From: Desulfoscipio gibsoniae DSM 7213
GTDB taxonomy: Bacteria > Bacillota > Desulfotomaculia > Desulfotomaculales > Desulfallaceae
Direction of reading: 5' to 3'
Assembly (NCBI RefSeq): GCF_000233715.2
Contig: NC_021184.1
Coordinates: 3,744,001-3,808,000 of the forward strand
Length of the DNA stretch: 64,000 nucleotides
Under the pieces are notes generated by a model that was not told the DNA's origin, made no database searches, and saw only the letters and a program-made list of their open reading frames with translations. A program made the position numbers and the translations under genes. Below, one piece after another: positions 5,175 to 37,627 of the stretch (position 1 is the first letter of the stretch; the number at the start of each line of letters is the position of its first letter).

Positions 5175-5205
5175 ATTTAACCCCTCCAAAAGGAAAAATA
5201 TAAAA

Positions 5206-8949: not shown

Positions 8950-9625
8950 ACCACGGCCGTATATGTTAGGCGGCAAGGAAACCGGTCACTACCAGTCCGC
9001 TTTTAATAAAGCTTTGCTTATTTTTAAAGAGCTTGACCCGGAAGAAATGGCCGCTCGCAGCGGGGCTGCTTACGATCCCCGAACATGCCTTTTTACTTTG
9101 CCAAGCTTCGGCCAGAACATCACCATACAATACCCCCGGGGTCTGGTTACTTTTACTTCTTCCGAGCTACCTTTGCTGGGCTGGCGGCTGGTTGTTTTAA
9201 ACTACCTGGTAAGATCCGACGGTATTTCAATGGATAATCGTCTGATATCCTACCGGGAACTGGAAAACGGAACGGTGTTTTACAACGCTTTTCAAAGGGA
9301 AAGCATTCTCACCCTGGGCCAGTGGGTACAGGACAAATCACCATGTATTCTGGCTCAAGCCATGATACGCCTGGGTGCTGCTGTTACCAGCAAAGATGCC
9401 GATTTAGCTGCGACCTTACTTGCACTGCCCAGGTTTCCCATCACCATAAAAATATGGTTTCCAGACGATGAATTACCGGGATCGGCGAATATTTTATTCG
9501 ACTCCAGTGCCAATCATTATCTACATACCGAGGATATTGCCGTACTGGGTGATTACGCCAGCGCTTTTTTAATTAATGAGTATCAGGTTTTAACCGGACG
9601 CCCCTGTCGTCCCATCACATTATAA
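8942..9625 (+). CDS. DUF3786 domain protein
   Basis: 227 residues, soluble, no signal peptide. It matches the DUF3786 pattern common in anaerobes (Desulfotomaculum, Moorella and similar): DPEEMAARSGAAYD, FTLPSFGQ, a short strand ending TFTS, LLGWRLVVLNYLVRSDG, SYRELENGTVFYNAF, KIWFPDDELPGSANILFDS and YLHTEDIA. Function is unknown; family members often lie near corrinoid or methyltransferase genes, but none is next to this one. It overlaps the TPR gene by 8 nt and is followed after 30 nt by a hydrolase gene. Confidence 0.82.
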   Translation: MTKPRPYMLGGKETGHYQSAFNKALLIFKELDPEEMAARSGAAYDPRTCLFTLPSFGQNITIQYPRGLVTFTSSELPLLGWRLVVLNYLVRSDGISMDNRLISYRELENGTVFYNAFQRESILTLGQWVQDKSPCILAQAMIRLGAAVTSKDADLAATLLALPRFPITIKIWFPDDELPGSANILFDSSANHYLHTEDIAVLGDYASAFLINEYQVLTGRPCRPITL

Positions 9626-9655
9626 TCCATCAATTATGATAATGAGGTGATCCGT

Positions 9656-10549: not shown

Positions 10550-11458
10550 TTAAGATAATACCTGCCCGGTCAGGTATTTTAAACCATTATGCAAAGCCCT
10601 TGGCCTGAAGCCAAAATTGTTTTCCACGGCATCTATGTCAGTAATGTTATGCACATCCAGTTGCTTTAACTCAACCGGAGAAACAGGCGGGTCCCGTAAA
10701 ATACTGTCCATTAACGGCACCACCAGGCGCATAAGCGGCATGGGTACATACAGTTTATAGCGTTTTTCCCCCAGGCTTTCCATTAAACGATCGAGCATTT
10801 GCGCGTAGCTTAAATGTTCAGGACCGCCGATTTCAATGATTCGGCCCACCATGTCGGAATTCTCGCATATCCGCAACAGGCAGCGCACCACATCCTCCAC
10901 CGCAATAGGCTGAAATAAAGTACTTCCCCTGCCCGGAACAGGAACAAACGGCCTGGGAAACATTTGCAATGATTGAATCATGCGATTAAAAAAATTAAAC
11001 CCCATCCCGTAAATCACTGACGGGCGTAATATTGTCCACTTAAGACCGCTTTGCCTGACCGCCTCTTCGCCGCGCCACTTTGAATAAACATATTTATAAC
11101 GGGAATTATCACAGGCACCAAGGGCACTCATATGAATAAAATGCTTTACCTCGGCCTGGCCGGCTGCAATAACCAGATTCAGGGTACCTTCCACATTTAT
11201 GCGTTCGAAGGTTTGCTCTCCATGTTCTCTGATAATGGCCACCAGATGAATTACTTTATCCACACCCTGGCATGCTTTGTTTACCGACTCCGGGTCATTA
11301 ATTTCACCCTGGACAAATTCAATGCCCCCAGGTAAAACCTCACCGGCTTTTTGAGGTGACCGGACCAGGCAGCGCACGGTGTGGCCTTTTTTTACCAAAG
11401 CACTCACCAGGGGCTTTCCCACCAGGCCCGTACCACCGGTTACAAGTATCACACGCAT
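10550..11458 (-). CDS. Atypical SDR, NDUFA9-like NAD(P)-binding protein
   Basis: About 302 residues. N-terminal Rossmann motif VTGGTGLVGKPLV (GxxGxxG), then DKVIHLVAI, and YSKWRGEEAVRQSGLKWTILRPSVIYG. This is the atypical SDR group related to the complex I NDUFA9 subunit and YfcH/YlbE-type proteins. The usual catalytic YxxxK is only partly kept (YKYVYSKWRGEE), so it may bind a nucleotide or quinone-related ligand rather than act as a dehydrogenase. Start ATG 11458 follows GGAAAGGAAC; the longer frame has no such site. No complex I genes are in the window. Confidence 0.8.
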   Translation of the reverse strand: MRVILVTGGTGLVGKPLVSALVKKGHTVRCLVRSPQKAGEVLPGGIEFVQGEINDPESVNKACQGVDKVIHLVAIIREHGEQTFERINVEGTLNLVIAAGQAEVKHFIHMSALGACDNSRYKYVYSKWRGEEAVRQSGLKWTILRPSVIYGMGFNFFNRMIQSLQMFPRPFVPVPGRGSTLFQPIAVEDVVRCLLRICENSDMVGRIIEIGGPEHLSYAQMLDRLMESLGEKRYKLYVPMPLMRLVVPLMDSILRDPPVSPVELKQLDVHNITDIDAVENNFGFRPRALHNGLKYLTGQVLS

Positions 11459-23639: not shown

Positions 23640-24395
23640 TTACTTCACCTGTAAAGCACACATAATTTTTCTTTTCAGAGCCAGAAAATCGGGGGCGGTA
23701 AATAATTCAGCGCGCCGCGGCCTGGGCAGGCGTACCGGCAGGTGCATGCATACCCTGGCAGGCCTGGGAGTAAGCACGTATACCCGGTCCGACAGAAAAA
23801 TCGCCTCGTCAATATCATGGGTAACAAATAAAACTGCCTGCTTGAAATTATTCCAGACTTTAAGCAGCCACTGCTGCATACGGGTACGGGTTATGGCGTC
23901 CAGTGCTCCCAGGGGTTCGTCCAAAAGTAGCACCCGCCGCCTTGCCAACACAGTACGCATCAGTGCGGCCCGCTGGCGCATGCCGCCGGAAAGTTCAGCA
24001 GGGTAACAGTTTTCAAAACCGGCAAGCCCAAAAAGCGGCATTAACTCCCTGGCCTCATGCTGCACGGCTATCCGGTCTCTTCCTACGGCCCGGCGAGCCA
24101 AAATAACATTGTCCAATACGGTACGCCAGGGCAACAGCAAGTCCTTCTGGGGCATATAGGCCACTACTTCCCCCGCAGGCACCCCATACTGATCACCCAG
24201 CAGCACCCGTCCCCGATCGGGAGCAGTTAAACCGCAAATAATATTAAAAAGCGTGCTTTTACCACAGCCGCTGGGTCCAATGAGGCTGACAAACTCCCCC
24301 TCCAGCACCTGCAAACTTACGTTGTCTAAAACAGGCAGGGACGTACCGTTTAACAGAAATGACTTGGCCACCCCCTCCAAAAATATCTCTACCAT
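23640..24395 (-). CDS. thiZ: ABC transporter ATPase, thiamin-precursor uptake (ThiZ-type)
   Basis: About 251 residues. Walker A GPSGCGKST, signature LSGGMRQRAAL, Walker B VLLLDEPLGALD, and the H-loop in LFVTHDIDEAI. It belongs to the nitrate/sulfonate/taurine/HMP ATPase group. Specificity is taken from context: last gene of the TPP-riboswitch operon after ThiX and ThiY. Start ATG 24395 follows GGAGG by 6 nt. Confidence 0.85.
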   Translation of the reverse strand: MVEIFLEGVAKSFLLNGTSLPVLDNVSLQVLEGEFVSLIGPSGCGKSTLFNIICGLTAPDRGRVLLGDQYGVPAGEVVAYMPQKDLLLPWRTVLDNVILARRAVGRDRIAVQHEARELMPLFGLAGFENCYPAELSGGMRQRAALMRTVLARRRVLLLDEPLGALDAITRTRMQQWLLKVWNNFKQAVLFVTHDIDEAIFLSDRVYVLTPRPARVCMHLPVRLPRPRRAELFTAPDFLALKRKIMCALQVK

Positions 24396-24569
24396 TTTTG
24401 CCTCCAATCAGCCAGTAACGGTGTAAAAATTGAAAACAGCTGCGCAACAGCAATTGTGCATGTCAAATAAAAGGCAACGCACGGCGCTAAAAAAACAAAG
24501 TTAGGCTACCTGTATGCATCAGGTATGTACAATACTTTTTGCCGGCGTACGGCGCAGCTGTCAACCCGG

Positions 24570-25586
24570 TTATTCAGGCAAAAATTCGTTGGTAAAAGCC
24601 TTGTGGGTATCAATTATTTCAGGCAGCAAATTATTCTGATGCATCCATTTGGCGTAACGCTCCCACACCTGGTTATCTTGTTCCCCCCAGCGGGCGGCGT
24701 CATCCTGGTAGCGCGGGCTCAAATACTTCTGGCTGGCCAGTACCAGCTGCTCATCCAACTCGGGCACATCCTCCAGCAGTATCCGGGCGGCTTCATCAGG
24801 CTGTTCAATAGCCAGCGTATAACCTTTGGCCGTGGCCCGCATAAACTTTTTCACCAGCTCGGGGTTGTCTTTAATCAATTGCTCGCTGGTAATTAAAACA
24901 GGAGTATAGTAATCCAGTGCCGGTTCGAAATCACGAAGTTCCAGGAAATTCAGATCTAGACCCCTTTGTTCAGCCTCTATTCCGGTCCAACCATAATAGA
25001 TCCAGGTAAAATCAACGTCCCGCTCAATAGCCGTAAAAAAGTCCGCCGAGCCGATGTTCAATATTTGCACCTTGCTGAAATCTCCGCCATCATTTTCCAC
25101 CACTGCCTTGAGCACAGCTTCCTCACTGGGTGAACCCCAGCCACCATAACGTTTGTTCTCCATTAAGCGAGGGCTGGTAATACCTTTATCCTTTGTGGAG
25201 GCAAAACCAGAGGTATTGTGCTGTATTACCGCAGCAATGGATACCACCGGAACATCACTGGCCCGGGCCTGGGTAACGTCTTCCTGATAACTCACCCCAA
25301 ACTGGGCCTTGCCGGTAGCCACCAGCTGGGTGGTACCACCCTGGGTGGGCTCTACAATAGTCACCTGCAGCCCCTCATCGGCATACCAGCCCTTATCCCT
25401 GGCCACATAAAGGCCGGTGTGATTGGTATTGGGCACCCAGTCCAGCATTACCGTAACGGGCTGCAGCTCCCGGTTATCCGGAACGGATGTCCGGTCATTT
25501 CGATCAGGTGAACCACTGCCGGAAGAACAGCCTGCAACAATCAACATTGCGACCAGTAACGCAATGGCAGTAATTTTTCTAAACAT
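24570..25586 (-). CDS. thiY: HMP-precursor-binding lipoprotein (ThiY-type, NMT1/THI5 fold)
   Basis: About 338 residues. Lipoprotein signal with lipobox IVAGC, so membrane-anchored on the outside. The mature part begins with LDWVPNTNHTGLYVARDKGW, the hallmark of NMT1/THI5-like proteins that bind formylamino-pyrimidine or related thiamin precursors, followed by VEPTQGGTTQLVATGKAQFG. Start ATG 25586 has AAAGGAG upstream and lies 2 nt after the permease stop. The TPP riboswitch upstream supports a thiamin-precursor ligand. Confidence 0.88.
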   Translation of the reverse strand: MFRKITAIALLVAMLIVAGCSSGSGSPDRNDRTSVPDNRELQPVTVMLDWVPNTNHTGLYVARDKGWYADEGLQVTIVEPTQGGTTQLVATGKAQFGVSYQEDVTQARASDVPVVSIAAVIQHNTSGFASTKDKGITSPRLMENKRYGGWGSPSEEAVLKAVVENDGGDFSKVQILNIGSADFFTAIERDVDFTWIYYGWTGIEAEQRGLDLNFLELRDFEPALDYYTPVLITSEQLIKDNPELVKKFMRATAKGYTLAIEQPDEAARILLEDVPELDEQLVLASQKYLSPRYQDDAARWGEQDNQVWERYAKWMHQNNLLPEIIDTHKAFTNEFLPE

Positions 25587-25587
25587 T

Positions 25588-26382
25588 TTAATTATTTCTC
25601 CTTTCATTATAGTACCAGGGCATAACCAGGCGGGCCAACAATTCAATCAATGTGTAAATTAGCAAGCTAACTAGTACAATAATAAAAATAGCGGCAAAAA
25701 CCCGGTCCAGCTGATAAGCGTGGGTAGCCCTGGTCATAAATACCCCGAGACCGCTTACCGCGCCCAGCCACTCGCCTATAACCGCCCCCATGACTGAATA
25801 AGTGCCCGCAATTTTAAGACCGGCAAAAAAGGAAGGCAAGGCTGCTGGAAACCGCACCACCCTGATGACCTGCCAGCGGGAATAACCCATTACCCGCAGC
25901 AAATTAACCATATCCCCATCCGCAGACTGCATACCTTCCACCAAACTGACCACCACGGGGAAAAAGCAAACCAACGCCACCACTACCACCTTGGGCAAAA
26001 TACCGTAGCCAAACCAGATAATAAACAGCGGAGCAATGGAAATAATGGGCACTGTTTGGGAAACCACCAGTAACGGGTAAAGCCCCTGCCGAACCCAGGG
26101 GTGCAGGTCCATCAGCACAGCAAGCACCAGCGCCACCGCAACTGCCGCCGCCAGTCCCGATACCGCCGCCAGTATAGTGCTCTTGGAATGGTTGGCCAGC
26201 AGCGGCAGCATGTCCCCAAGTGTTATAATTACCTGGCTGGGAGCCGGCAGCAGATATGGCTTGATGGCAAAAACACGCACACCGGCCTCCCAGACAGCCA
26301 AGAAAGCCAGCAAAAAAAACAGTGCAGGCCATAGCCTATTACCGGCTGCAACATGACCGCCTATGCGGTTTAGCCGCGACAT
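25588..26382 (-). CDS. thiX: ABC permease, thiamin-precursor uptake (ThiX-type)
   Basis: About 264 residues, six membrane segments, BPD_transp_1 fold. The EAA loop reads MVNLLRVMGYSRWQVIRVVRFPAALP. It belongs to the SsuC/TauC/ThiX permease group. I start at ATG 26382, which overlaps the end of the upstream gene; the longer frame upstream merely reads through that gene in another phase. Follows the thiamin-binding MTH1187 gene and precedes thiY. Confidence 0.87.
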   Translation of the reverse strand: MSRLNRIGGHVAAGNRLWPALFFLLAFLAVWEAGVRVFAIKPYLLPAPSQVIITLGDMLPLLANHSKSTILAAVSGLAAAVAVALVLAVLMDLHPWVRQGLYPLLVVSQTVPIISIAPLFIIWFGYGILPKVVVVALVCFFPVVVSLVEGMQSADGDMVNLLRVMGYSRWQVIRVVRFPAALPSFFAGLKIAGTYSVMGAVIGEWLGAVSGLGVFMTRATHAYQLDRVFAAIFIIVLVSLLIYTLIELLARLVMPWYYNERRNN

Positions 26383-26669
26383 GGCCTGTATTTGTCCACT
26401 TTTTCCGCCATGGTCACGCCTTCGGGTACATAGTCTATTTTGACCAGCGTCATTACCCGGCGCGCCCCCGCGTCGATGCATGCTTGCTGGGCTTTTTTCA
26501 CTATCTCCAGCAATTCATCCAGATCCCCTTCCATGGTGGTTTCCATGGGACCTACTTCATATGGGACGCCGGACTGCTGTACTACTTCGATGGCTTTGTC
26601 CACCACGGCATAGCTGTCCCCATCAGGTACCTGGGGCAATACCTGAAAACTGACATTAATCGACGGCAC
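26370..26669 (-). CDS. MTH1187-family thiamin-binding protein (DUF77)
   Basis: 99 residues, ferredoxin-like fold: NVSFQVLPQ, YAVVDKAIEVVQQSG, YEVGPMETTMEGDLDEL and RRVMTLVKIDY. Family members (MTH1187/YkoF-like) bind thiamin in the cytoplasm. Encoded inside the thiamin operon between thiN and thiX, which fits a soluble thiamin- or pyrimidine-binding partner. It overlaps thiX by 13 nt. Confidence 0.88.
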   Translation of the reverse strand: MPSINVSFQVLPQVPDGDSYAVVDKAIEVVQQSGVPYEVGPMETTMEGDLDELLEIVKKAQQACIDAGARRVMTLVKIDYVPEGVTMAEKVDKYRPCRG

Positions 26670-26751
26670 CTTGCATCAGCTCCTGTCGTTAAGATTGGTT
26701 TGCTTGTCTTTCAACTTTCAACTTTCAACACCCGGCACCAAAGCCAAAGCG

Positions 26752-27390
26752 TTAATTTACTTTGATTAGCAACATTAATCCAGAAGCAATGGTTATCTCG
26801 GCCTTATCCCCGGCCAGCCGATTGCTTATACCGTATGGGTTACCTATGCTGAAGGTGGCATCCTTTAGCGGCCACCGGGCACAATGCACGCACACACCGG
26901 TGACCTTCTCGGTAAGGGGCAGCAGTGAGAATACATCACCGGGCCGGCCCTCAACAACAGCGGGTTGCTGCGGTGCCACCAGGCTGATTTCATTGTATTC
27001 ATTGATAATCCTGGCAGGTACATGGTGTTCAAAAGCGACCCGCAATAGATGCACATTGGCCAGGGTATGGTCCATGCGGGTGCCCGTGGCACCTAAAATA
27101 ACCACTTCATCCGGAGGGCCTGCCAGCGCTTCGGCTATGGCCAGAGCCGTATCTGTATCATCCTTTTCGGCGGGATACTCCTTAACAACCACGCCCTGCC
27201 GGTAAAAACTTTCCAGCAGAGACTGGTCTATGGAATCCATATCACCTACAATGACTTGGGGGACAATTCCCAAAGCAGCCGCATACCTTGCCCCGCTGTC
27301 GACACAAATCAACCGGTCAGCCCCGGCAAGAGCCCGGGCCAGCCACTGTAAATTATCTACTGTTCCCCCGGTCAATACAACACAACGCAT
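26752..27390 (-). CDS. thiN: Thiamine diphosphokinase
   Basis: 212 residues. Transfers pyrophosphate from ATP to thiamin to give TPP, the ligand of the riboswitch upstream. Motifs: CVDSGARYA, VIVGDMDSID, PAEKDDTDTALAIA (acidic Mg/ATP site), ILGATGTRMDHTLANV, and the C-terminal thiamin-binding beta domain with GISNRLAG near the end. Length is normal. First complete gene of the operon, with ATG after a GGATGGTG site. Confidence 0.92.
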   Translation of the reverse strand: MRCVVLTGGTVDNLQWLARALAGADRLICVDSGARYAAALGIVPQVIVGDMDSIDQSLLESFYRQGVVVKEYPAEKDDTDTALAIAEALAGPPDEVVILGATGTRMDHTLANVHLLRVAFEHHVPARIINEYNEISLVAPQQPAVVEGRPGDVFSLLPLTEKVTGVCVHCARWPLKDATFSIGNPYGISNRLAGDKAEITIASGLMLLIKVN

Positions 27391-27662: not shown

Positions 27663-27680
27663 TTAAGATTGTCATTTATA

Positions 27681-27766
27681 CCTTTCCTACGCGGGCATTA
27701 CCCCGTTCAGGTTCATGGGTCAGGTGCTTACAGCCCTTTCTCAGCCCATACAATGAGCTCCCCCAG
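27681..27766 (-). promoter_or_regulatory. TPP riboswitch (THI element)
   Basis: Minus strand shows the conserved parts in order: GGGGGAGC, GGGCTGAGAAAGGGC, ACCTGACCCATGAACCTGA, GGGGTAATGCCCGCGTAGG and AAAGG. It controls the downstream thiN, MTH1187, thiXYZ operon by transcription termination: TPP binding favours the hairpin at 27630. Confidence 0.93.
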
Positions 27767-27787
27767 TTAGTATATTGGTTTTTCTTT

Positions 27788-27852: not shown

Positions 27853-28590
27853 CTAAACCAGCAACTGCCCACTCATTTTAAACGGGCGAAGAAAACGCTG
27901 AACCGCCGGGACAGCGACTTCACCCGCCAGCAAACTTTTTAGCCCCCCTTTATATACAATGGCACCTGCATCTATTACCGCCACGTTATCTGTCAGATAG
28001 GGAATTTCGTTAAAATCATGGGTAACAAAAACTGTGGTGCTGCCGGTATTGGCCAGCTGTGTGCCTAAATCCTCCAAAAGTTCCAAACGTGTAGAAAAGT
28101 CAAGGGCCGAAAAAGGCTCGTCCAAAAAAATAACCTCGGGTTCCAGTACAAAAGCACGGGCCAGGCTGACCCGCTGTGCCTCGCCACCGGACAGGTGCAA
28201 AGGCTTACGATTACGGAGGGCCGTAATACCAAACCGATCCAGCCAGTAATCAACCCGGCGCTGCCTGTCCACCCCGGCAATGCCCCGGAAATGCATACCC
28301 TGAGCCACGTTATTAAAAACAGTTGTATTTAATAACAGAGGTTCCTGGAACACCACAGCCATGCGCCTGCGAAAGGTCAGGCTGTTTTGACCCGTCACTT
28401 TGTCCCCCCGAAAAAAAATTTCCCCGGCCGTGGGAGTTTCCAGTAAGGCAAGCACCTTTAAAAAAGTGCTCTTGCCCGCCCCGTTGGGGCCGATCACTGC
28501 CAGCCTTTCCCCTTCCTCAAGCCGAAAATCGCCGATCTGCAGAATAGTCTTTTTATCCCTTACCACGACTATATCTTTTAAAGTTAGCAT
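27853..28590 (-). CDS. Orphan ABC transporter ATPase (tungstate/molybdate TupC-like)
   Basis: About 245 residues. Walker A GPNGAGKST, signature LSGGEAQRVSLARA, Walker B VIFLDEPFSALD, H-loop VFVTHDFNEI. The core resembles TupC/WtpC-type tungstate ATPases, but there is no permease or binding protein next to it on either side, so the substrate is a guess. Start ATG 28590 follows GGAG. It faces the riboswitch of the next operon on the same strand. Confidence 0.72.
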   Translation of the reverse strand: MLTLKDIVVVRDKKTILQIGDFRLEEGERLAVIGPNGAGKSTFLKVLALLETPTAGEIFFRGDKVTGQNSLTFRRRMAVVFQEPLLLNTTVFNNVAQGMHFRGIAGVDRQRRVDYWLDRFGITALRNRKPLHLSGGEAQRVSLARAFVLEPEVIFLDEPFSALDFSTRLELLEDLGTQLANTGSTTVFVTHDFNEIPYLTDNVAVIDAGAIVYKGGLKSLLAGEVAVPAVQRFLRPFKMSGQLLV

Positions 28591-28931
28591 AAACACTGCT
28601 CCTAAGTTATTGCGGTTATATATTTAATATACCAGTAAATTATTTTTACTACAATATTACTAGGGTAAAGTACCCCCTAAGCACTCTAATAAGAAAATTA
28701 TTGCTAATCAAGAAAATTATTAAAACATAATTGCGCTAAAGGGAGCCGGAAAATAGTTGGATACATCCAATACTGTAATGTTTTCCAGAGGCAATAAAAT
28801 AAACCCACCCTTCGCTGAAAGCTCATTGCACTTGATACTAATGTGATTCTTCCCCGAAGATGTTTTCTAAAGCTCTGCAAACAAAAACTCTGTAGTACGA
28901 TATATATTTATAAAACGTCTAAATTAGTTAG
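28591..28931. other. 341-nt intergenic region, nothing recognised
   Basis: AT-rich, no reading frame with a ribosome-binding site and no hairpin with a U-tract. It should hold the promoter of the orphan ABC ATPase gene; no convincing -35/-10 pair found. Confidence 0.4.
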
Positions 28932-29647: not shown

Positions 29648-29699
29648 CAAAAAAGCGCTCGGCCCCCGATCGGCAAATGCCGAATCAGGGGCCGAGCGT
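29648..29699 (-). terminator. Strong terminator of the DUF364/FecCD/radical-SAM operon
   Basis: Minus strand CGCTCGGCCCC / GGGGCCGAGCG stem (with GATTCGGC/GCCGATC inner pairs) followed by CTTTTTTG. It lies 95 nt after the ABC ATPase stop. Confidence 0.88.
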
Positions 29700-29792: not shown

Positions 29793-30578
29793 TTATCCCG
29801 CAAGCAAAGGAATACAGGTTTTAATCGGCTCACCTTTGTTGTTACACGTATGGGTTATTTTAACGTTGATACCGTAGGCTGCTTTTAAGTTTTTCTCTGT
29901 AATCACTTCATCCACACTACCTACGGTAAAAACATTATTCCTTTGCATCAAGGCAACCTTAGTTGAACAAAGAAAAGCATGATCCGGAAAATGTGAGGTC
30001 ATAATTACTCCCAAGCCCTTCTGGGAAAGACGGTTGATTTGCTCCAGCACCCTGATTTGGTTGCCAAAATCCAAATTGGAAGTAGGCTCGTCCATAACAA
30101 GAATCTCCGGTTGCTGGGCCAACGCCCGGGCAATTAACACCATCTGTCTCTCACCACCACTGATTTCGGTATAAATCCGGTCTTTGAGGAAAGAAACATT
30201 GAGGATATCTAAAGCTTCCTCAGCAATGTCCAAATCGGCCAAAGAGGGTGCCCCGGCTATGCCTAAGTAAGCTGTTCTGCCCATAACCACTACATCAATT
30301 ACTTTAAAAGGAAAGGGTGGGGTATGAGCCTGAGGCACATACCCCAGCGCTTTGGCCAGGCGCCTGCGCGACCAGCCATGCACATTCTCACCATCCAGTA
30401 AAATCTTTCCCTTGCGCAGTTTCAAAAAGCCCAGGATAGTCTTAAATAAGGTAGTTTTTCCCACCCCGTTAGGTCCCAGAAGACACAGTATCTCCCCGGA
30501 TTCCAGCTTGATGGATATATCCTCAACAACGTTTTGTTTACCATAGCCGCATGAAGCATGTTTAATCTCCAGTTTCAA
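29793..30578 (-). CDS. ABC ATPase, FecE/BtuD-type (metal-chelate uptake)
   Basis: 261 residues. Walker A GPNGVGKTT, signature ISGGERQMVLIARA, Walker B ILVMDEPTSNLDF, H-loop in MTSHFPDHAF. Typical partner of FecCD permeases for siderophores, heme or cobalamin. Start TTG 30578 follows GGGAGG. Last gene of the operon that starts at 36201; separated by 65 nt with a small GGAGCTT hairpin from the radical SAM gene. Confidence 0.88.
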   Translation of the reverse strand: MKLEIKHASCGYGKQNVVEDISIKLESGEILCLLGPNGVGKTTLFKTILGFLKLRKGKILLDGENVHGWSRRRLAKALGYVPQAHTPPFPFKVIDVVVMGRTAYLGIAGAPSLADLDIAEEALDILNVSFLKDRIYTEISGGERQMVLIARALAQQPEILVMDEPTSNLDFGNQIRVLEQINRLSQKGLGVIMTSHFPDHAFLCSTKVALMQRNNVFTVGSVDEVITEKNLKAAYGINVKITHTCNNKGEPIKTCIPLLAG

Positions 30579-30643
30579 AGGCTATACCTCCCTGGTTAAC
30601 AGGCTATCCCATAAAGCGCGGAGCTTCACGGAAGCTCCCCCAG

Positions 30644-32428
30644 TCAGTCGTTTCGCCATTCCCACTTGTTGCTGGGCTTACTGAAAGAGCGGTTGATCTC
30701 CGCCAGGGAAAAATCCGACCCATAAAATTGTTTATAAAACCTGGCTGCCTCCGCCCATACATCAAAATGATATACCTCCGGATGAAGCATATTGGCCATA
30801 TACAGTAAACCCAGGATCCACCGGGGGCTGCCAAAATCCCAGCCGGGAGCGGGGTGGGAATATATGCGTTTGTTCTTCACCGCACCAACATTTATCCCGG
30901 CTTTACAGCATTCCGCATAAAAATCCTCAACGGAAGAGGATAGGAAAGCCGATATAAATATAACATCCGGATTAAGGGCATTTAATTTCTCAACAGAAAT
31001 TCGACTGCCGGGCCTGCCGGAACATTCTATTTCTTTATTTACACTGATCCCCCCGGCTGCTTCAACCAACTGATTTTCGAAACGCTTCCCCATCAGGCAA
31101 AAAAGCGGTTTTCCCATGGCATAATATACACGGGGCTTTTTCTTAACAGCAAGTAACGATATATTAATTAAAGAAATTTTTTCTTCTATATAAGCAACCA
31201 GTTCTGCGGCCTTTTCTTCCATCTGGACCAACTTGCCAAAATATCTGATTACCTCAAGGTATGAACCAATGTTTTGAATGCTTTGATGTAATTTTTGCAG
31301 TTCATTTTGGCCAAGCATACTTTCCCAAACCTGTACCACTTGTTTTATATCAGTGACGCCTATGGTGATTAAGATTGCTTCCACCATTTCCAGTGCTCTG
31401 GTAAAGGGGTAGCCTCCCTGAAAATCACCTTCCCGGTAATTTATTTCCGCAGGCAGTGCTTTTATGGGGATTTTCCAACCGCATTGCGGGCAAATATTGT
31501 TGCGGGCTGAATCAGACTCGGAAAATAGTAATTTTGCTCCCATCGGGCCGTAAAAGTCTCTTTTAAAGATAACCTCCCCGCAATTGGGGCAGAATGTATT
31601 GAGATAGTCCGTCCCGGGTGAATTAAAGAGATATACATAATTGAGATGTTTTCTTAAACTTTGATATAGATTTTCGGCAGACCGGATGGAGGGCTCCAAA
31701 GCCGGGTCAGCCCCTTCCAGAGGTATAAAGCGCATTAGTTGTAAAGGTATTTCCGGCGATATGTTGGCTAATTTCTTGGCCAGTTCCAATACTTCTTCCA
31801 TATTATTATTTTGCAAAATACAAGAAACTTCCACATGGATACCACTTTGATAAAGCCTTTTAATATTTCTCAAAACCGGCTGAACCGTACCACCGCCACA
31901 ATTTTGATATGCCCGGAGGGACAAGCCCTTAACACCTACATTGATAAAATCTAAATAACGAGTTATTTGGGCCAGTGATGTTTCAGTAAAATAGGCATTT
32001 GTGGAACAACCTACCAATAAGCCGTTTTTTTGGGCCAAGGTGGCTACTTTTAAAAAGGTAGGAAGTGATGCCAGTGGATCGTTAAGTAAAAAGGCTATGC
32101 CAATGCACTCATTTTTTACTGCTTCATCCACCACCTGTTGGGGAGATAATTCTCGTAAGGCTTTACTGGTAGGGGCCATTTCCTTAGCAATAACTGTGGA
32201 AAAACAGCCTCTACAATTAAAATTACAGCCCGTAGTGCTGATTTGCAGGAATTTCCCCCTCGGGTAGAAGTGCAAAACAGGCATTGTTTCAATGGAAATG
32301 GGGCATACAGTTAAGTATTTATTGGGAAAGAGCTCAATTATATTTTCCCCGTTGTTTTTATAAAGTCCACAGGCCCCGGTATTTCCTTCCGGAATGGTGC
32401 AGCCTCTTTCACAGATATTACATTTCAT
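30644..32428 (-). CDS. Radical SAM enzyme fused to the C-lobe of a metal-chelate substrate-binding protein
   Basis: 594 residues, no signal peptide. Residues 1-20: Cys-rich CNICERGCTIPEGNTGACG. Radical SAM core with CX3CX2C (GCNFNCRGC) near residue 68, of the PFL-activase-like COG1180 group. Two CxxC knuckles (FCPNCGE and NICPQCGW, about residues 283-317) form a zinc-ribbon-like or auxiliary metal site. From about residue 385 the chain aligns with the backbone helix and C-lobe of the neighbouring binding protein: RVYYA.G, NPDVIFI, WILGLLYMANMLHPEVYHFD and FYKQFYGSDF match RVYYAEG, NPEVILT, WLGNLLYPQVFNYD and FYKKFYHYTL. The N-lobe is absent. Reaction unknown. Overlaps the methyltransferase gene by 11 nt; ATG after GGAGAAG. 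Confidence 0.85.
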   Translation of the reverse strand: MKCNICERGCTIPEGNTGACGLYKNNGENIIELFPNKYLTVCPISIETMPVLHFYPRGKFLQISTTGCNFNCRGCFSTVIAKEMAPTSKALRELSPQQVVDEAVKNECIGIAFLLNDPLASLPTFLKVATLAQKNGLLVGCSTNAYFTETSLAQITRYLDFINVGVKGLSLRAYQNCGGGTVQPVLRNIKRLYQSGIHVEVSCILQNNNMEEVLELAKKLANISPEIPLQLMRFIPLEGADPALEPSIRSAENLYQSLRKHLNYVYLFNSPGTDYLNTFCPNCGEVIFKRDFYGPMGAKLLFSESDSARNNICPQCGWKIPIKALPAEINYREGDFQGGYPFTRALEMVEAILITIGVTDIKQVVQVWESMLGQNELQKLHQSIQNIGSYLEVIRYFGKLVQMEEKAAELVAYIEEKISLINISLLAVKKKPRVYYAMGKPLFCLMGKRFENQLVEAAGGISVNKEIECSGRPGSRISVEKLNALNPDVIFISAFLSSSVEDFYAECCKAGINVGAVKNKRIYSHPAPGWDFGSPRWILGLLYMANMLHPEVYHFDVWAEAARFYKQFYGSDFSLAEINRSFSKPSNKWEWRND

Positions 32429-33053
32429 CTCTTCTTCTCCTTATCAATATCCATAACCCCGCTTCATCCCGGTTTATTTCAAAAAACGCTATTTTTGTAT
32501 TCTGTAATATTTTAGTGAAAGCTTCTGGGGCATTCTCTCCAATGTTTTTATTCATCATTGCTCGCCAATTCTTATTATCTTTTTCCATTCTGGCAGCAAT
32601 CTGCTTTTTAAGCTCCGCCGAACCAAAACCGCCGCCAATGTAAGCAACACCCCCCGGAGCAAGTACCCGGTATATTTCTTCAAAGGCCTTTTGTTGGTCT
32701 TCCCAAAAAAATATTGAACCCCTGCTTATAATCAAATTGATGGATTGATCAGGTAGTGGGATTTTTTTAACATCGGCAAAAAAAGTTTGCATTCTTGTTT
32801 TCAACCCGGCGGCAGAAATGTTGCTAGCAGCAATTTCTAGCATTTCCAGTGATTTATCCAATAAATAAATATAGAGTTCCGTAATGCTGGCCAGGGCAAT
32901 GCCTAAATAACCGCCACCGCAGCCAATATCCAAACACTTCCCGGTGGTAATACCGGTCTTCTGTTTGATCTGTTCCGCAATAACAGGATAAATCGGGGCA
33001 AAAACTTCCCGGGCAATATTATCAAATTCGCAAACATTCATTTTTGTATCCAT
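32418..33053 (-). CDS. Class I SAM-dependent methyltransferase
   Basis: About 211 residues. SAM-binding motif I CLDIGCGGGYLGIAL, acidic motif II LLDKSLEML, motif ADVKKIPLPDQSINLIISRG, and VLAPGGVAYIGGG. It resembles methyltransferases of the UbiE/Methyltransf_11 type. Start ATG 33053 follows AAAGGTG. Placed between the binding protein and the radical SAM fusion, so its substrate is probably the imported ligand or a product derived from it; this is inference. Confidence 0.82.
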   Translation of the reverse strand: MDTKMNVCEFDNIAREVFAPIYPVIAEQIKQKTGITTGKCLDIGCGGGYLGIALASITELYIYLLDKSLEMLEIAASNISAAGLKTRMQTFFADVKKIPLPDQSINLIISRGSIFFWEDQQKAFEEIYRVLAPGGVAYIGGGFGSAELKKQIAARMEKDNKNWRAMMNKNIGENAPEAFTKILQNTKIAFFEINRDEAGLWILIRRRRDEM

Positions 33054-33193
33054 GTTTCCTATCACCTTTCTTCTTGGATGCTTTTAGAACAACATGCCAA
33101 AGAGGTTATTAAAATCTTCCGGATGACACAGTGGACAGCCAAAAGATTGCTTTATCAAGTTCTATTACTTCTATATCCATCCAGTTAAGTTAA

Positions 33194-34294
33194 TTAGCCC
33201 TTTTGACTCAGTAGTGCTTTCGCTTGTTCATCAGTAAGAGTGTAGTGATAGAATTTCTTGTAAAAGTCTTTTACCTCCGCCACCATGTCGTAGTTAAACA
33301 CCTGGGGATAGAGTAAATTGCCGAGCCATTTAAATCCGATAATCCGGTTAATTGAGGGCGGCCTGTCAAACCAGTTGTAAGGCGCATTGGGAATTCGATA
33401 GACACGATGTTGTTGGACAGCTTTAATTGCCTGCCAGGCCGGATCGCTCATAATCCCCTGATAGAATCCTCCCTGATTCTCTTGCCAGGTCAGGATTACC
33501 TCGGGATTCCATGACAGTACCTGTTCCATGGAAACCGGTGTCATGCCCGCGTTCATACCTCCCGCTCCTTGTTGAGTAACGTCAGCCACGTTAATTCCAC
33601 CGACCACCTGCAGCGTTTCAATATGTCTTGAACCATCCGGTTCTGTCTCCAAGCCTTTCGGGCCTTCCGCATAATATACCCTGACACGCCGGTCACTGGG
33701 AATTTGGGCGGCTTTGGCTGTAACATCGTCAATTGTATTACGGCAATAATCAGATAATTCTTGAGCACGAGCTTTTTCGTCAAGCAGGTCCCCCATAAAT
33801 TCCAGAGCCTTGTCCATACCCGTCACGGGAGCATCAATCAAAACCACCGGTATCCCCAATTGTTTCTGAATTTTATCGGCATTGGAAATCTCGGTATTGT
33901 TGATAGCGCCCATATTGATGAGCACATCAGGTTGTATTTTCAATAACTCCTCTGTATTACCGGTGTTCTTGGCATACCATCCTCCCAGATTGGGTAAAGA
34001 CTGGTACTCGGGTAAAATAAACTTTTTTTCGTCGGGCCGCAATTCGTAATTCCACCCCACCATTTTATCCGGACACAACGCATAAAGCGCAATAGTGCCC
34101 ACCGGGCTGGTTGAAAAGGCCGTCTGAATCGTGGCGGGAACAGTTACGGTTCGCCCCGCCATATCTGTAATCGTACGTGTTGCCTCATCCTGACCGACCG
34201 GTGTGGAAGCAGTACGGCCGCACCCGGCGAGACTTAATACAAACAGAACGATGATCGTCAAACCGAGCAAGCAGCTGATTTTTTTCTTATTCAT
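33194..34294 (-). CDS. Substrate-binding lipoprotein, FepB/BtuF-type
   Basis: 366 residues. Lipobox LSLAGC after a hydrophobic signal, then a Peripla_BP_2 (TroA-like) fold: RTITDMAGRTVTVP, VGTIALYALCPDKMVGWN, LLKIQPDVLINMG (N-lobe), a long backbone helix, and RVYYAEGPKGL, VLSWNPEVILTWQ, NAPYNWFDRPPS in the C-lobe. Related proteins bind ferric siderophores, cobalamin or other metal chelates. ATG follows GGAGGAG. The C-lobe is homologous to the C-terminal part of the radical SAM protein two genes downstream. Confidence 0.88.
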   Translation of the reverse strand: MNKKKISCLLGLTIIVLFVLSLAGCGRTASTPVGQDEATRTITDMAGRTVTVPATIQTAFSTSPVGTIALYALCPDKMVGWNYELRPDEKKFILPEYQSLPNLGGWYAKNTGNTEELLKIQPDVLINMGAINNTEISNADKIQKQLGIPVVLIDAPVTGMDKALEFMGDLLDEKARAQELSDYCRNTIDDVTAKAAQIPSDRRVRVYYAEGPKGLETEPDGSRHIETLQVVGGINVADVTQQGAGGMNAGMTPVSMEQVLSWNPEVILTWQENQGGFYQGIMSDPAWQAIKAVQQHRVYRIPNAPYNWFDRPPSINRIIGFKWLGNLLYPQVFNYDMVAEVKDFYKKFYHYTLTDEQAKALLSQKG

Positions 34295-34376
34295 CAGTTA
34301 TTCTCCTCCTACCTCAATTATTTGCGGAAAATCTCCGACCAACTTTTACCAGCTACCTTATATAATCCTGTCGGGC

Positions 34377-35453
34377 TCACTCCCATCCTTTCCTGCCGGA
34401 CACCAACAGGTAAAAGAAAAACGGTGCCCCGATGAGTGCGGTAAGAATCCCCAGGGGAATCTCCACAGAAGCCATGCAGCGGGCCAAATCATCAACAAGC
34501 AGCAAATAGGCACCTCCAAGAATAATTGACGTCGGCAGCAGTACTTTATAATTTGGACCGACAATCATGCGTGCCCAATGCGGCACGATCAACCCCACCC
34601 ATCCGACGAGACCGCTAATTGATACAGCGGCCGCGGTCATAAGCGTAGAACACACAATGACAATAAACCTTAATCTTCCGGTCTCCAGTCCCATGGCCAT
34701 AGCTTCTTCTTCACCCAGGGATAAAACATTCAGCCGCCACCGCAAAATATACAGGGGTATCCCCCCCAGCAGAATGGGAATTATTCCTGTCAATACATCT
34801 TGAGGTGTTATGGCGGCCAGGCTGCCCATCAACCAAAAGGTAATGGCCGGAAGTTTGTCATAGGGATCGGCTACGAACTTGATTAACGACGTGGCTGAGC
34901 TAAATATCGTGCCCACTAATACCCCGGTTAAAACCAGCACCAGCGTAGGATCCAGCCGGACCCTCCTACTGATAAAATAAGTAAGCATCACGGCAATAAG
35001 GCTGAAAATAAACGCTGATAGTTGAATACCGAAAACATTGAGTGAGAAATAAATACCTAGGGCAGCTCCAAACCCCGCACCGGCAGAGGCCCCAAGAATG
35101 TCTGGAGATACCAGCGGGTTTTTGAACATGCCCTGGTAGGCCGCCCCGGAAGTAGCCAGGGCGGCTCCAACCAGCAAAGCTGCAAAAATCCTTGGCAGCC
35201 TCACATTAAATACCACAATATCCATAGTAGCCGGCCAGGTATGAGTAATAGGAAATATTTTGGCGGCTAAAATCAAGAATAAATTGTCCAAGGGCACCGG
35301 ATACCTACCAAGAGGGAAGGAAAGTATAAAAATCAAAAGGGCTATAACTACGAGAATTACTTCTTTATGCCAGTGTTTAAACGTTTTTGCTTTAAGTCCT
35401 TTCGCCCTCCCCAATTCCTCGCTGATCTTCCCGTCTATCATTTCATTAGACAT
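34377..35453 (-). CDS. FecCD-family ABC permease
   Basis: 358 residues, about ten membrane segments. RLPRIFAALLVGAALATSGA, then NPLVSPDILGASAGAGFGA, and GWVGLIVPHWARMIVGPNYK are the classical FecCD motifs. Single permease, so a homodimer. Its ATG lies 8 nt inside the DUF364 stop, giving translational coupling. N-terminal 30 residues are polar and charged before the first segment. Confidence 0.92.
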   Translation of the reverse strand: MSNEMIDGKISEELGRAKGLKAKTFKHWHKEVILVVIALLIFILSFPLGRYPVPLDNLFLILAAKIFPITHTWPATMDIVVFNVRLPRIFAALLVGAALATSGAAYQGMFKNPLVSPDILGASAGAGFGAALGIYFSLNVFGIQLSAFIFSLIAVMLTYFISRRVRLDPTLVLVLTGVLVGTIFSSATSLIKFVADPYDKLPAITFWLMGSLAAITPQDVLTGIIPILLGGIPLYILRWRLNVLSLGEEEAMAMGLETGRLRFIVIVCSTLMTAAAVSISGLVGWVGLIVPHWARMIVGPNYKVLLPTSIILGGAYLLLVDDLARCMASVEIPLGILTALIGAPFFFYLLVSGRKGWE

Positions 35454-36201
35454 TTTTTATCTCTGAACTTGATATTTTAACCATATTACAACCGTGTTCA
35501 AATATGGCCATACCGCCACCACCTTGCCGGACAAAACTCCATATCTTTGCATCAGTTATCACCGAGCCGGCCAAAGCCGAAATGCCATATGCAAATAGCC
35601 GTGGAGTTAAAGGCGTACTTGGTCCCACCAGGATCACCTTGCTTTTTCCTGCCAGCTGTAACAGGCGCGGGAGGGTTTTATTAATGAGCGTAGTAGCTGT
35701 AATAAAAACATAATCTTGCTGCGGCAAAAGGAATTCGCAGGCCGGGTCGGGGAAATCATCAGGCCCGGGACGCCGCTCAAGTACGGATATTTCACATATA
35801 TTCTTTAATTGATCCAAATCCGGAAAACGCCCAATTACCGCCACTTTCTTGCCGGACAACAGATTGCTATAATATGTAAAAGCATTTGTTTGTTGATGGT
35901 TAGTCACGGAACACTTTGTCATCCGCTCGACCTGTTCTTTGGTATTAATAGCGGAATTGATCGCTGCCAGGGCAACCGCCGCCTCTAAATTGTTCCACGA
36001 TTTGATATAACCCGCCAGTTCTCGCACACTCATACCCACAATATCGCCAGCCATGCTGCTTAAACCGCATCCTTCTTTTGGTGTCATGGCAACACCGGTG
36101 GTTTTTGATTTGACCAGAATCCAATGAAGCCCAACACAACAATCACTTACCATTAAGTCCCGGGGCACGGACTCAATTAATTCGTCATAGATTTTCCACA
36201 T
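35446..36201 (-). CDS. DUF4213/DUF364 putative metal-chelation protein
   Basis: 251 residues. N-terminal DUF4213 half (CCVGLHWILVKSK, GLSSMAGDIVGMSVRELAGY) and C-terminal Rossmann-like DUF364 half (KKVAVIGRFP, ISVLERRPGPDDFP, DYVFITATTLINKTLPRLL, LVGPSTPLTP). Structural work on a Desulfitobacterium homologue suggested an enolase-like plus Rossmann arrangement with a possible heavy-metal chelation role; no reaction is proven. ATG follows GAGGAGG. First gene of the operon, which points to a central role rather than an accessory one. Confidence 0.88.
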   Translation of the reverse strand: MWKIYDELIESVPRDLMVSDCCVGLHWILVKSKTTGVAMTPKEGCGLSSMAGDIVGMSVRELAGYIKSWNNLEAAVALAAINSAINTKEQVERMTKCSVTNHQQTNAFTYYSNLLSGKKVAVIGRFPDLDQLKNICEISVLERRPGPDDFPDPACEFLLPQQDYVFITATTLINKTLPRLLQLAGKSKVILVGPSTPLTPRLFAYGISALAGSVITDAKIWSFVRQGGGGMAIFEHGCNMVKISSSEIKNV

Positions 36202-36454
36202 TATTACCTACCTCCTCACCCGTTTCTTGAACAAACTTTTCTCCTTTCTATACAAAATCACACCCCTTTGCGGATTAATTCACCTGCTGTAAAAGCATAA
36301 AGGTTTTTGTGCTTGGCTAAAACCTGAGTAAGCAACTAACTAGCTTATTTATACATAAATATATATAACATTATATAACATAATTACTCATGATAATATT
36401 TGCCTAACACAAAAAACTTAAATAGACATAACAATACATAACGTGTTTTAGGTA

Positions 36455-36483
36455 ATAATAAATTATGGTAAAATATTTGTCAA
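36455..36483 (-). promoter_or_regulatory. Promoter of the DUF364/FecCD/radical-SAM operon
   Basis: Minus strand TTGACA (36478-36483), 17-nt spacer, TATTAT (36455-36460). The 250-nt leader that follows is AT-rich and contains repeated TTATATAA-like half-sites at about 36355-36380 that could be an operator. I see no cobalamin riboswitch in it. Confidence 0.75.
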
Positions 36484-36553
36484 TAGACTTGAATCTATAA
36501 ACCGGGTTAAACACCATTATTAGTGTCTATATCCCTGAGTCGCAGTGTGGGTC

Positions 36554-36625
36554 ATTAACTGACTTATGGCTTTACCGTTATGCATGTTCCTCTATTCGGT
36601 TTCCCCACAAGATAAGCCAGTTAAT
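36554..36625. repeat. Long-range inverted repeat in the trp/DUF364 intergenic region
   Basis: Arms ATTAACTGACTTAT (36554-36567) and ATAAGCCAGTTAAT (36612-36625) pair over 14 nt with one mismatch around a 44-nt loop. It lies upstream of the operon promoter and downstream of the trp terminator, with no gene. No U-tract follows. It could be a small structured RNA or a remnant of a mobile element. Confidence 0.5.
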
Positions 36626-36673
36626 AGCGGACCTTACAACATTTGTCCAATGCTTTAGTACATGCAGATAAGT

Positions 36674-36703
36674 AAAAAAAAACAAGACCGGGATGACCGG
36701 TCC
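36674..36703 (-). terminator. Terminator of the trp operon
   Basis: Minus strand GACCGG/CCGGTC stem then TTGTTTTTTTTT, about 95 nt after the aroF stop. Confidence 0.85.
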
Positions 36704-36796
36704 TGATATATATTCTCAAATTCTATTGAAATCATTCTCAACTTCAGTGAACTCATAACCCGAATATCAAAATTTTCCCAACCGTATACGCTACAC

Positions 36797-37627
36797 CTAA
36801 GCGCTAACCCGTGCGCTGCAGCACCCTACCCCGGCACCGCGCAATTCTTCCATAAATACGGCCAGTTCACCGGGCGGCAGCGACTGCGGCCCGTCGGAAA
36901 GAGCGTTCTCCGGTGCCGGGTGCACCTCCAGCATCAGGCCGTTGGCCCCGGCGGCCAAAGCGGCCCGGGCTACGGGTAATACTAACTCCCGGCGGCCGGT
37001 GCCGTGGCTGGGGTCGGCGATCAGAGGCAGGTGGGATAGGTTTTTCACCGCCGCCACTGCATTGATGTCAAAGGTATTCCGAGTATAGGTTTCAAAGCCT
37101 CGAATACCCCGCTCGCACAAAATAACCTCAGGGTTGCCCTCGGCAAGTATATATTCCGCAGCCAGCAGCCATTCTTCCAAAGTGGCGGAAAGGCCTCGCT
37201 TGAGCAGCACGGGATAACCGACCCGGCCCACTTCTTTTAACAGCTCGAAATTCTGCATGTTCCGGCTGCCGATTTGGATAATCTGGGCATAGCGACAAAC
37301 CTCCGGCAGATAGCGCACATCCGTCAATTCGGTAATCACCGGCATACCGGCTGCCCGCCCGGCTTCGGCCAGAATACGCAACCCGTCGGCGCCCAAACCC
37401 TGGAACGAATAGGGCGAAGTGCGGGGCTTGTAAGCGCCGCCCCGGAGCACCTGAACGCCCATCCGCTTCAGCTGGCGGGCCAGTTCAACCAGCATTTTCT
37501 CTTCCTCCACGGCGCATGGCCCGGCGATCACCACCGGGGTTTCCCCGCCAATCAGACAGTCCCCAACCCGCACCACGGTATAGTCCGGCTTATTCTCCCT
37601 GCTTACTAGTTTATACGGCGGCAACAT
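36797..37627 (-). CDS. aroF: 3-deoxy-7-phosphoheptulonate synthase, short form without regulatory domain
   Basis: 276 residues. Same barrel motifs as the copy at 4143 ([70 protein letters not shown]), but the chain begins about 8 residues before the linker, so the ferredoxin-like N-terminal domain of about 70 residues is missing. That domain mediates feedback control in type I beta enzymes; this copy may be unregulated at protein level. ATG 37627 follows GGAGGTG and overlaps trpA by 17 nt, so it is the last gene of the trp operon. Confidence 0.92.
   Translation of the reverse strand: MLPPYKLVSRENKPDYTVVRVGDCLIGGETPVVIAGPCAVEEEKMLVELARQLKRMGVQVLRGGAYKPRTSPYSFQGLGADGLRILAEAGRAAGMPVITELTDVRYLPEVCRYAQIIQIGSRNMQNFELLKEVGRVGYPVLLKRGLSATLEEWLLAAEYILAEGNPEVILCERGIRGFETYTRNTFDINAVAAVKNLSHLPLIADPSHGTGRRELVLPVARAALAAGANGLMLEVHPAPENALSDGPQSLPPGELAVFMEELRGAGVGCCSARVSA

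Follow-up and report, generated by a model that had tools for sequence, protein, structure and literature searches.

The question raised by this locus is what is taken up by an ATP-binding cassette (ABC) importer that is encoded together with its own cytoplasmic enzymes. The locus is a minus-strand operon of six open reading frames (ORFs), which spans positions 29793-36201 of a 64,000-nucleotide (nt) stretch of Desulfoscipio gibsoniae DSM 7213, hereafter the window. It encodes a DUF4213/DUF364 protein, a FecCD-type permease, a substrate-binding protein, a class I S-adenosylmethionine (SAM)-dependent methyltransferase, a fusion of a radical SAM domain with the C-lobe of a binding protein, and an ABC ATPase. 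The FecCD and Peripla_BP_2 families transport siderophores, heme and corrinoids, and a sequence-only reading, which had located these six tightly packed genes and described them as a metal importer joined to cytoplasmic enzymes in one operon, had left the substrate open among such ligands. The gene positions and Pfam families were confirmed and support the joining of importer and enzymes, and the substrate can now be sharpened to molybdenum (Mo) or tungsten (W) by the likeness of the importer to MolBC, by regulatory sites and by neighbouring genes. Nitrogenase, formate dehydrogenases, aldehyde oxidoreductases and methanogenesis all depend on Mo or W, and both metals are in short supply where sulfide is abundant. 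It is very probable that the operon is part of a Mo/W regulon, and on balance probable that it is a Mo/W acquisition operon of anaerobes, in which a chelate is imported and its ligand is processed by the fusion protein and the methyltransferase. The computed basis of this reading is the gene set, the fold of the fusion, the kinship to MolBC, the operator-like sites common with mod genes, and the Mo/W gene neighbourhood.

The importer, the fusion protein and their partners

The closest solved permease and ATPase are those of a molybdate/tungstate importer. Among PDB chains, the permease matched MolB (2nq2_A) with 254 bits, followed by FhuB with 163.7 bits, and MolC (2nq2_C) was the sole chain matched by the ATPase at E <= 1e-35. 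The binding protein matched 4pag (179.7 bits), 4ovk (107.4 bits) and MolA (3psa, HI_1472; 69.9 bits, E 1.8e-18), the last being the third of 12 matches and the first with an assigned substrate. According to the available text of PMC4031551, MolBC-A of Haemophilus influenzae (HI1470/71/72) is a type II importer that binds molybdate and tungstate and works as a low-affinity molybdate importer alongside ModBC-A, and molB is repressed in a molybdate-dependent manner. The present system resembles MolBC-A in these closest relatives, in a binding protein of the same family and in a predicted control by molybdate, which in H. influenzae takes the form of molB repression and would here be exerted through operator-like sites. 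However, it differs in the presence of the radical SAM fusion, the methyltransferase and DUF364 in the operon, and the term "radical SAM" is absent from the main text of PMC4031551. Membership among corrinoid (BtuCDF) importers was rejected, since the permease scored 235.2 and 184.7 bits with two BtuC models, i.e., below both cut-offs (461 and 334, respectively), and no B12 riboswitch was found in the window. The importer is probably of the MolBC type and under Mo/W control, with a processing module that is unstudied.

The fusion ORF matches Radical_SAM with 61.2 bits and Peripla_BP_2 with 29.8 bits (cut-off 27.5), and its AlphaFold2 model, for which the input was an alignment of 71 full-length sequences (the window's and 70 further), reached a predicted local distance difference test score (pLDDT) of 92.7 and a predicted template modelling score (pTM) of 0.92. 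In a structure search, residues 33-267 of the model resembled pyruvate formate-lyase (PFL) activase 3c8f (Z 19.5, root-mean-square deviation 2.9, 221 residues aligned), residues 45-267 resembled NifB 6y1x (Z 16.7), and the radical SAM domain also resembled QueE (Z 16.4); residues 343-574 resembled the class III binding protein 4hn9 (Z 20.2, 218 residues aligned of a 316-residue chain) and MolA 3psa (Z 18.0). The Peripla_BP_2 profile is covered from position 93 to 232 of 235 only, and therefore much of the N-lobe is absent and the radical SAM half precedes the C-lobe, the second half of the protein being an incomplete two-lobe binding protein. Invariant throughout the 71 sequences are the CX3CX2C triad (C68, C72 and C75), four N-terminal cysteines (C3, C6, C10 and C20) and, in the linker, C280 and C283; two further linker cysteines, C313 and C316, are nearly so. 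The confident model and its two fold matches thus agree with the earlier description of a radical SAM enzyme carrying a binding-protein C-lobe: as modelled, the protein is a genuine member of the radical SAM superfamily joined to a class III C-lobe. Residues 1-321 also match positions 12-330 of the 349 in the AmmeMemoRadiSam model (NCBIfam TIGR04337); however, the score of 121.4 bits is below the cut-off of 220, and the C-terminal lobe sets the fusion apart from that family. None of the six operon proteins matched AMMECR1 or Memo, the partners of AmmeMemoRadiSam proteins, in Pfam, this comparison covering the operon and not the remainder of the genome.

In the class to which the host belongs, 103 of 113 genomes gave a match to the fusion at E 1e-30. 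Full-length fusions were found in 10 of the 113, host included, with 54 to 100 percent identity, and the remaining matches cover the radical SAM half. The nine other genomes with a full-length fusion all have the permease, the ATPase and the binding protein (the permease of locus L046 is cut by a contig end), eight have the methyltransferase (all except L045), and six have DUF364 within the fetched stretch. Because the gene set recurs in relatives, a chance cluster is excluded. The order of the six families, for which the earlier reading had advised a genome search, is confined to close relatives and is no conserved unit: genome G022, the closest relative, keeps the exact operon order of the window, in G017 the same order is interrupted by an additional copy of DUF364 and a fragment, and five of the other seven genomes have the order permease, ATPase, binding protein, methyltransferase, fusion. 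The importer type and the extra genes vary, and the methyltransferase/fusion pair is the steadiest part.

When genome contigs were scanned more widely for the C-terminal domain, 108 coding matches were obtained, from which 80 loci in named genomes were kept. These are found in Desulfotomaculales, Desulfosporosinus, Clostridium, Sporomusa, Syntrophomonas, Acetobacterium, Moorella, Desulfobacterota and Geobacter, and further in Sulfurospirillum, Chlorobium, Deferribacterota, Treponema, Synergistales, Thiobaca and methanogens; the carrier genera are mainly anaerobes, and the carriers include Sporomusa ovata, Pelotomaculum propionicicum, Desulfotruncus arcticus and Methanohalophilus. For comparison, 40 control FecCD regions were taken from 25 of the same genomes, 26 of which had been searched, and six were dropped for a fusion match above 150 bits, leaving 34. 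When 46 permeases located within 8 kb of a fusion (the window's included) and 37 control permeases were placed in a FastTree phylogeny, 44 of the 46 fell in one clade of 52 (support 0.96), which also contains 8 controls, and the label changed 7 times over the tree as compared with a mean of 27.3 and a minimum of 20 after shuffling. The C-domain profile, run against ORFs of binding-protein size (270-430 amino acids, aa), had a median best score of 69.5 bits at 53 fusion loci and 23.7 bits at 29 FecCD control loci (p 3.5e-10), five of the 53 best scores being above 300 bits and looking like fusion fragments rather than binding proteins. This difference suggests that the C-lobe arose in the lineage of the binding proteins that accompany it, and it may recognise the same ligand.

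The commonest partner gene of the fusion is the methyltransferase, which is on the same strand at 58 of the 80 loci, within 150 nt at 45 and overlapping at 33. Within 6 kb on either strand, a methyltransferase was found at 60/80 loci, a FecCD permease at 41/80 and a TonB receptor at 17/80. The nearest solved methyltransferase, 3dlc, carries the name "putative methyltransferase" only. A Pfam tally of unlabelled ORFs of at least 150 aa within three ORFs of the fusion (145/160) gave no further dominant partner among the 25 families listed. FmdE and TrmO were rejected as specific partners (8/80 fusion loci vs 3/34 controls, and 4/80 vs 2/34, respectively), and so was the TonB receptor as a marker of the system (20/80 vs 9/34). 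Some loci carry additional genes. An HmdB/BioB-like radical SAM protein is encoded at L048:4925-5935, the only locus in which it was scored, and genes clustering with it are near the binding protein or the fusion in five loci (L048, L049, L050, L062 and L071). In L049, an XdhC-type gene adjoins the fusion. In Desulfosporosinus fructosivorans (L051:5218-8924), a nifDKH-like set is located between the methyltransferase and the fusion, with NifD and NifK below and NifH just above their cut-offs; a tetrapyrrole or F430-type system was rejected for these genes, which score as nitrogenase-like and occur in this one locus only.

The DUF364 and DUF4213 domains of the first operon gene are both above their cut-offs (23 and 23.5 bits, respectively; scores in Table 1). 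The available text of Miller et al. 2010 (PMC2954201) describes the structure of a DUF364 protein, Dhaf4260 (PDB 3l5o), ties the family to genes for transport or chelation of Mo, W, vanadium and iron, and proposes the making of a flavin, a pterin or a siderophore-like chelator; that text mentions neither a radical SAM fusion nor the repeat sites. Dhaf4260 and the operon protein are homologous, each with 251 aa. The other three DUF364 genes of the host genome adjoin ABC importer genes, by eye of molybdate/tungstate or related types, and one of these sites also has a ModE-like gene. In Desulfotruncus arcticus (L039), a second DUF364 gene (9511-10290) and a DUF364 fragment (10610-10837) lie between the binding protein and the methyltransferase. 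A search of viral contigs found no relative of the DUF364 protein.

Regulatory sites and Mo/W genes in the neighbourhood

Two operator-like sites, each with three tandem repeats, lie below the operon promoter (Table 1). With up to three mismatches allowed and the reversed pattern as a control, the triple repeat has three matches in the 4.86-Mb host genome, as compared with none for the reversed pattern. Two are those in the operon promoter, and the third is between modA, which scores above the curated cut-off, and a divergent gene. The latter, at about 2557020-2557991 of the genome, encodes a 323-aa protein that combines an excisionase-type helix-turn-helix (HTH) with a PBP_like domain, the relatives of which form the C-terminus of molybdopterin biosynthesis proteins (MoeA-type). 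In relatives, the matches were distributed as follows. G022 has two matches, in the operon promoter and in the mobA/modA intergenic region; both matches of G028 are upstream of the operon; the single match of G017 is between mobA and modA; in G086, a cluster precedes the permease and one match separates modA from the regulator gene; and in G096, one of five matches separates a mobA-like gene from the regulator gene. The position of site 2 is conserved in G022 and G017. Over nine genomes there were 29 matches, several of which overlap, and 6 for the reversed pattern. Nine of the 29 are upstream of the first importer gene of the operon, three of them overlapping and the one in G077 being counted only on account of a permease fragment of the FecCD type that begins below it, on a separate contig, and five are at mod, mobA or regulator genes, i.e., 14/29. 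A looser pattern with 2 mismatches was dropped as too noisy alone (11 host-genome matches vs 7 reversed). The operon of the Desulfotomaculales thus has operator-like sites in common with modA and mobA, as in the HTH/PBP_like Mo/W regulons (modABC, mobA and moeA). In G086, the motif also precedes the gene of a protein that has bacterial Ig-like domains (Big_2; L209:30-1268), and by eye it likewise precedes the homologue in G096 (L220:3-1190); this protein is possibly another regulon member.

In Campylobacterota, the regulator concerned is ModE. Of the five loci examined, four carry modE in the vicinity of exbB/exbD, of importer parts and of the fusion. A ModE-box palindrome consensus was compared with 300 permuted palindromes: the five loci contain 7 ModE-box-like palindromes with at most 2 mismatches, as compared with a mean of 0.17 for the permuted ones, of which one in 300 reached 7. 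Three of the seven directly follow the fusion and precede the next methyltransferase (the one in L089 falls within the called ORF, yet before its likely start), three are between exbB and modE, and one is elsewhere (L085:19130). With at most 3 mismatches and spacers of 5-7, 15 boxes were found in 91 kb of these five loci and 32 in 1,990 kb of the other 114, the base composition of the two sets being different. The modE of L089, the one among these genes that was scanned, is above the cut-off of two ModE domain models and below that of the full-length ModE model. Having modE or an HTH/PBP_like gene beside the fusion system, several loci are similar to ModE and HTH/PBP_like regulons, and the operator-like sites together with the ModE-like boxes predict molybdate-controlled expression. 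At one control locus (L150:5444-9404, Campylobacterales), a FecCD permease away from the fusion has FmdE, modE and a ModE-box-like palindrome nearby, and this permease is perhaps a second Mo/W-controlled importer of that genome.

The neighbourhood of the fusion was also compared with the FecCD controls for a set of Mo/W genes (ModA, ModB, Tup-type, ModE, HTH/PBP_like, MoeA and MobA). Such genes were found near 26/80 fusion loci and 1/34 controls (p 5e-4), with profile seeds that came partly from fusion loci and thus bias the count in their favour. With host-genome seeds from fusion-free loci, the effect was weaker (14/80 vs 1/34, p 0.037), and DUF364 was found near 20/80 fusion loci and 1/34 controls (p 0.004). 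When the longer loci of the same genomes were compared, Mo/W genes were found at 10/21 fusion loci and 0/30 controls (p 2.8e-5); this comparison omits five shorter fusion loci (L064, L065, L069, L074 and L081) and the four controls below 16 kb, and its zero depends on that length cut, which removes L150, the sole control with a Mo/W gene (modE).

Operon layout and flanking features

The operon is compact. DUF364 and the permease overlap by 8 nt (35446-35453), the methyltransferase and the fusion by 11 nt (32418-32428), both as noted earlier, and the remaining gaps are 82, 128 and 65 nt. A single promoter and a single terminator, also proposed by the sequence-only reading, were upheld. The promoter is among the two best of 18 sites in the window, where 20.8 are expected by chance; the call is credible because the -35/-10 block and the repeat sites below it recur ahead of the operon in G022 and G017, and not because of the scan count. 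The terminator hairpin was unlisted in the initial pattern scan of the window, and on folding it was more stable than all 200 shuffled sequences.

Table 1. Features of the operon and its transcription signals in window coordinates
Feature	Position	Strand	Details
DUF4213/DUF364 protein, 251 aa	35446-36201	minus	PF04016 128.7 bits, PF13938 80.9 bits; nearest PDB 3l5o 159.9 bits
FecCD-type permease	34377-35453	minus	PF01032 287.5 bits; nearest PDB MolB (HI1471) 2nq2_A
Substrate-binding protein (Peripla_BP_2)	33194-34294	minus	PF01497 78.9 bits
Class I SAM-dependent methyltransferase, 215 aa	32418-33065	minus	PF08241 (Methyltransf_11) 69.7 bits; PDB 3dlc 187.9 bits
Radical SAM / binding-protein C-lobe fusion, 594 aa	30644-32428	minus	PF04055 and PF01497 in one ORF
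ABC ATPase	29793-30578	minus	PF00005 (ABC_tran) 109 bits; nearest PDB MolC (HI1470) 2nq2_C
Sigma-70-type promoter, TTGACA-17-TATTAT	36455-36483	minus	11/12 consensus matches; block conserved in G022 and G017
Operator-like site 1, 10-bp repeat of GTTATGT type three times in tandem, just below the -10	36416-36442	minus	2 mismatches
Operator-like site 2, likewise a triple repeat, 63 bp further downstream than site 1	36353-36379	minus	3 mismatches
Intrinsic terminator, hairpin then U run	about 29648-29698	minus	-41.1 kcal/mol, z -7.9

No cobalamin riboswitch was found in the window, in agreement with the sequence-only reading; at gathering thresholds, Rfam gave RNase P, T-box, thiamine pyrophosphate (TPP) and 6S matches only. 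A riboswitch in the 595-nt intergenic region above DUF364 was rejected, there being nothing above chance: a scan of 36180-36800 at E up to 10 gave three Rfam matches, all far below gathering scores. The genes flanking the operon appear unrelated, one side being, by eye, for aromatic amino acid synthesis. Elsewhere in the window, a T-box leader (5351-5621, minus strand) precedes a gene at 4143-5189 that by eye is related to aromatic amino acid synthesis, and a TPP riboswitch (27667-27774, minus strand) is upstream of a thiamine pyrophosphokinase-like gene, near genes at 23640-27390 that by eye resemble a thiamine-precursor ABC importer. An ABC ATPase at 27853-28596 (minus strand) has no permease or binding protein directly adjoining, and its best model is tungstate WtpC, with 161.5 bits, far below the cut-off of 440.

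Cargo and processing

In the scheme that we favour, five points are inferences: a chelate as the cargo, its capture by the fusion, the chemistry performed on it, the direction in which regulation acts, and which of the two metals is taken up. Scarcity of Mo or W would permit expression of the operon through the regulator with an excisionase-type HTH and a MoeA-type PBP_like domain, or through ModE in Campylobacterota. The binding protein and the MolBC-type importer would then take up a Mo or W species, most likely bound to an organic ligand; some clusters of outer-membrane species include a TonB-dependent receptor. On reaching the cytoplasm, the complex would be captured by the fusion via its C-lobe, and the radical SAM domain of the fusion, which in sequence stands at the position of the N-lobe of a binding protein, would modify or break the ligand together with the methyltransferase. 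The freed metal would be passed to cofactor synthesis, the accessory proteins being DUF364 and, at certain loci, FmdE and TrmO-like proteins. It is plausible that the imported complex is received by the C-lobe and that its ligand is then altered or relieved of the metal, and the capture step is helped by the closer resemblance of the C-lobe to the binding proteins of its own loci than to those of control loci. A chelate is favoured as cargo because the uptake of a free oxyanion would not by itself account for cytoplasmic enzymes encoded with the importer, and because a MolA-type importer has low affinity for molybdate, the enzyme bears a receptor lobe, and TonB receptors are found in some clusters.

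Several observations weigh against this scheme. In the available stretch, 54 of the 80 fusion loci have no Mo/W gene detected by the profiles, and 39/80 have no FecCD permease within 6 kb (some stretches being short). Two loci of Syntrophomonadaceae (L075:4923-7447 and L091:5819-8341) have another type of ABC importer before the methyltransferase and the fusion, in L091 with the repeat motif upstream of it, which suggests that the importer is less constant than the pair of enzymes. Fifteen of the 29 repeat matches in the nine genomes are elsewhere or unassigned, and the motif was found at only 3/80 fusion loci and at 0/40 control loci; since two of the three are the G086 and G028 loci and the third is from a Syntrophomonas, the motif speaks for the Desulfotomaculales and their near kin and not for all carriers. 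TonB receptors are no commoner at fusion loci than at controls, and therefore are by themselves no argument for a chelate. Genes for metallophore synthesis were not recognised, no dedicated search having been made, and according to the available text of PMC4031551, MolBC-A works beside ModBC-A on free molybdate, so that a second importer needs no chelate. Radical SAM chemistry could equally build a cofactor, and the link of these genes to Mo or W is a computational one.

The strongest rival starts from these last points. Free molybdate or tungstate would be imported, and the fusion, the methyltransferase and DUF364 would build or modify an organic ligand or cofactor, the C-lobe being a donor site for the oxyanion with no degradation involved. 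All of the Mo/W evidence fits this explanation too, as do the free molybdate carried by MolBC-A of H. influenzae (available text of PMC4031551), the matches of the radical SAM domain to NifB and QueE, the nifDKH-like set of L051, the XdhC-type gene of L049 (Mo-enzyme maturation), and the methyltransferase/fusion pairs with no FecCD importer in the available stretch, e.g., L119 to L122 (L121 and L122 are short contigs). However, the host has mod genes as well, and a second importer would thus need another reason, and the resemblance of the C-lobe to the local binding proteins suggests that an imported species is recognised. We regard cofactor building from the free oxyanion as rather unlikely. 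An ordinary importer of an iron siderophore, heme or a corrinoid, with ligand-processing enzymes and with Mo genes nearby by accident, would be in keeping with the known ligands of the FecCD and Peripla_BP_2 families, with the good if sub-threshold scores of the permease on the BtuC models and with the TonB receptors at some loci. It appears improbable given MolB and MolC as the closest solved permease and ATPase, the Mo-type regulatory sites in two phyla, the enrichment of Mo/W genes relative to FecCD control loci and the absence of a cobalamin riboswitch. Alternatively, the cargo could be another metal under the same regulators, such as vanadium, or thiometallates of sulfide-rich habitats from which the enzymes remove sulfur or organic groups. 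Sulfate reducers, sulfur reducers, green sulfur bacteria and methanogens are numerous among the carriers, and the DUF364 context includes vanadium transport genes (available text of PMC2954201), but the neighbourhoods viewed contained no recognisable gene for a vanadium enzyme or specific to thiometallates, no dedicated search having been made, and this explanation seems quite improbable.

The reading with an imported Mo or W chelate can be taken one step further, tentatively. The fusion might be a catalytic receptor, in which the radical SAM barrel replaces the N-lobe of a protein that binds metallophores, and the Mo/W chelate would be clamped between the C-lobe and the radical active site and dismantled at that place; this seems possible, though doubtful. 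If so, a dedicated pathway of Mo/W-metallophore uptake and radical SAM release would be common to anaerobic bacteria and methanogens, and undescribed anaerobic molybdophores or tungstophores would exist.

The tie of DUF364 to Mo/W transport has been known since 2010; what is new is a MolBC-type importer joined to a new enzyme module, and the probable identity of the metal as Mo or W is the new element of the present analysis. That the system is undescribed, as suggested earlier, was consistent with the openly accessible literature (most subscription journals lie outside it), in which no account of the fusion, the operon, the methyltransferase pairing or the repeat sites was found, and the operon is not described in the available text of PMC9431491, PMC10390477 and PMC9765008. 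The operator result makes control by Mo or W directly testable. If a chelate is imported and is released or converted by radical SAM chemistry, this would add a missing step to the biogeochemistry of Mo and W, DUF364 would gain a testable role, and an enzyme would be revealed as half of a transport receptor grafted onto a radical enzyme. The operon thus suggests an undescribed route for the uptake and processing of scarce Mo and W in anaerobic bacteria and archaea.

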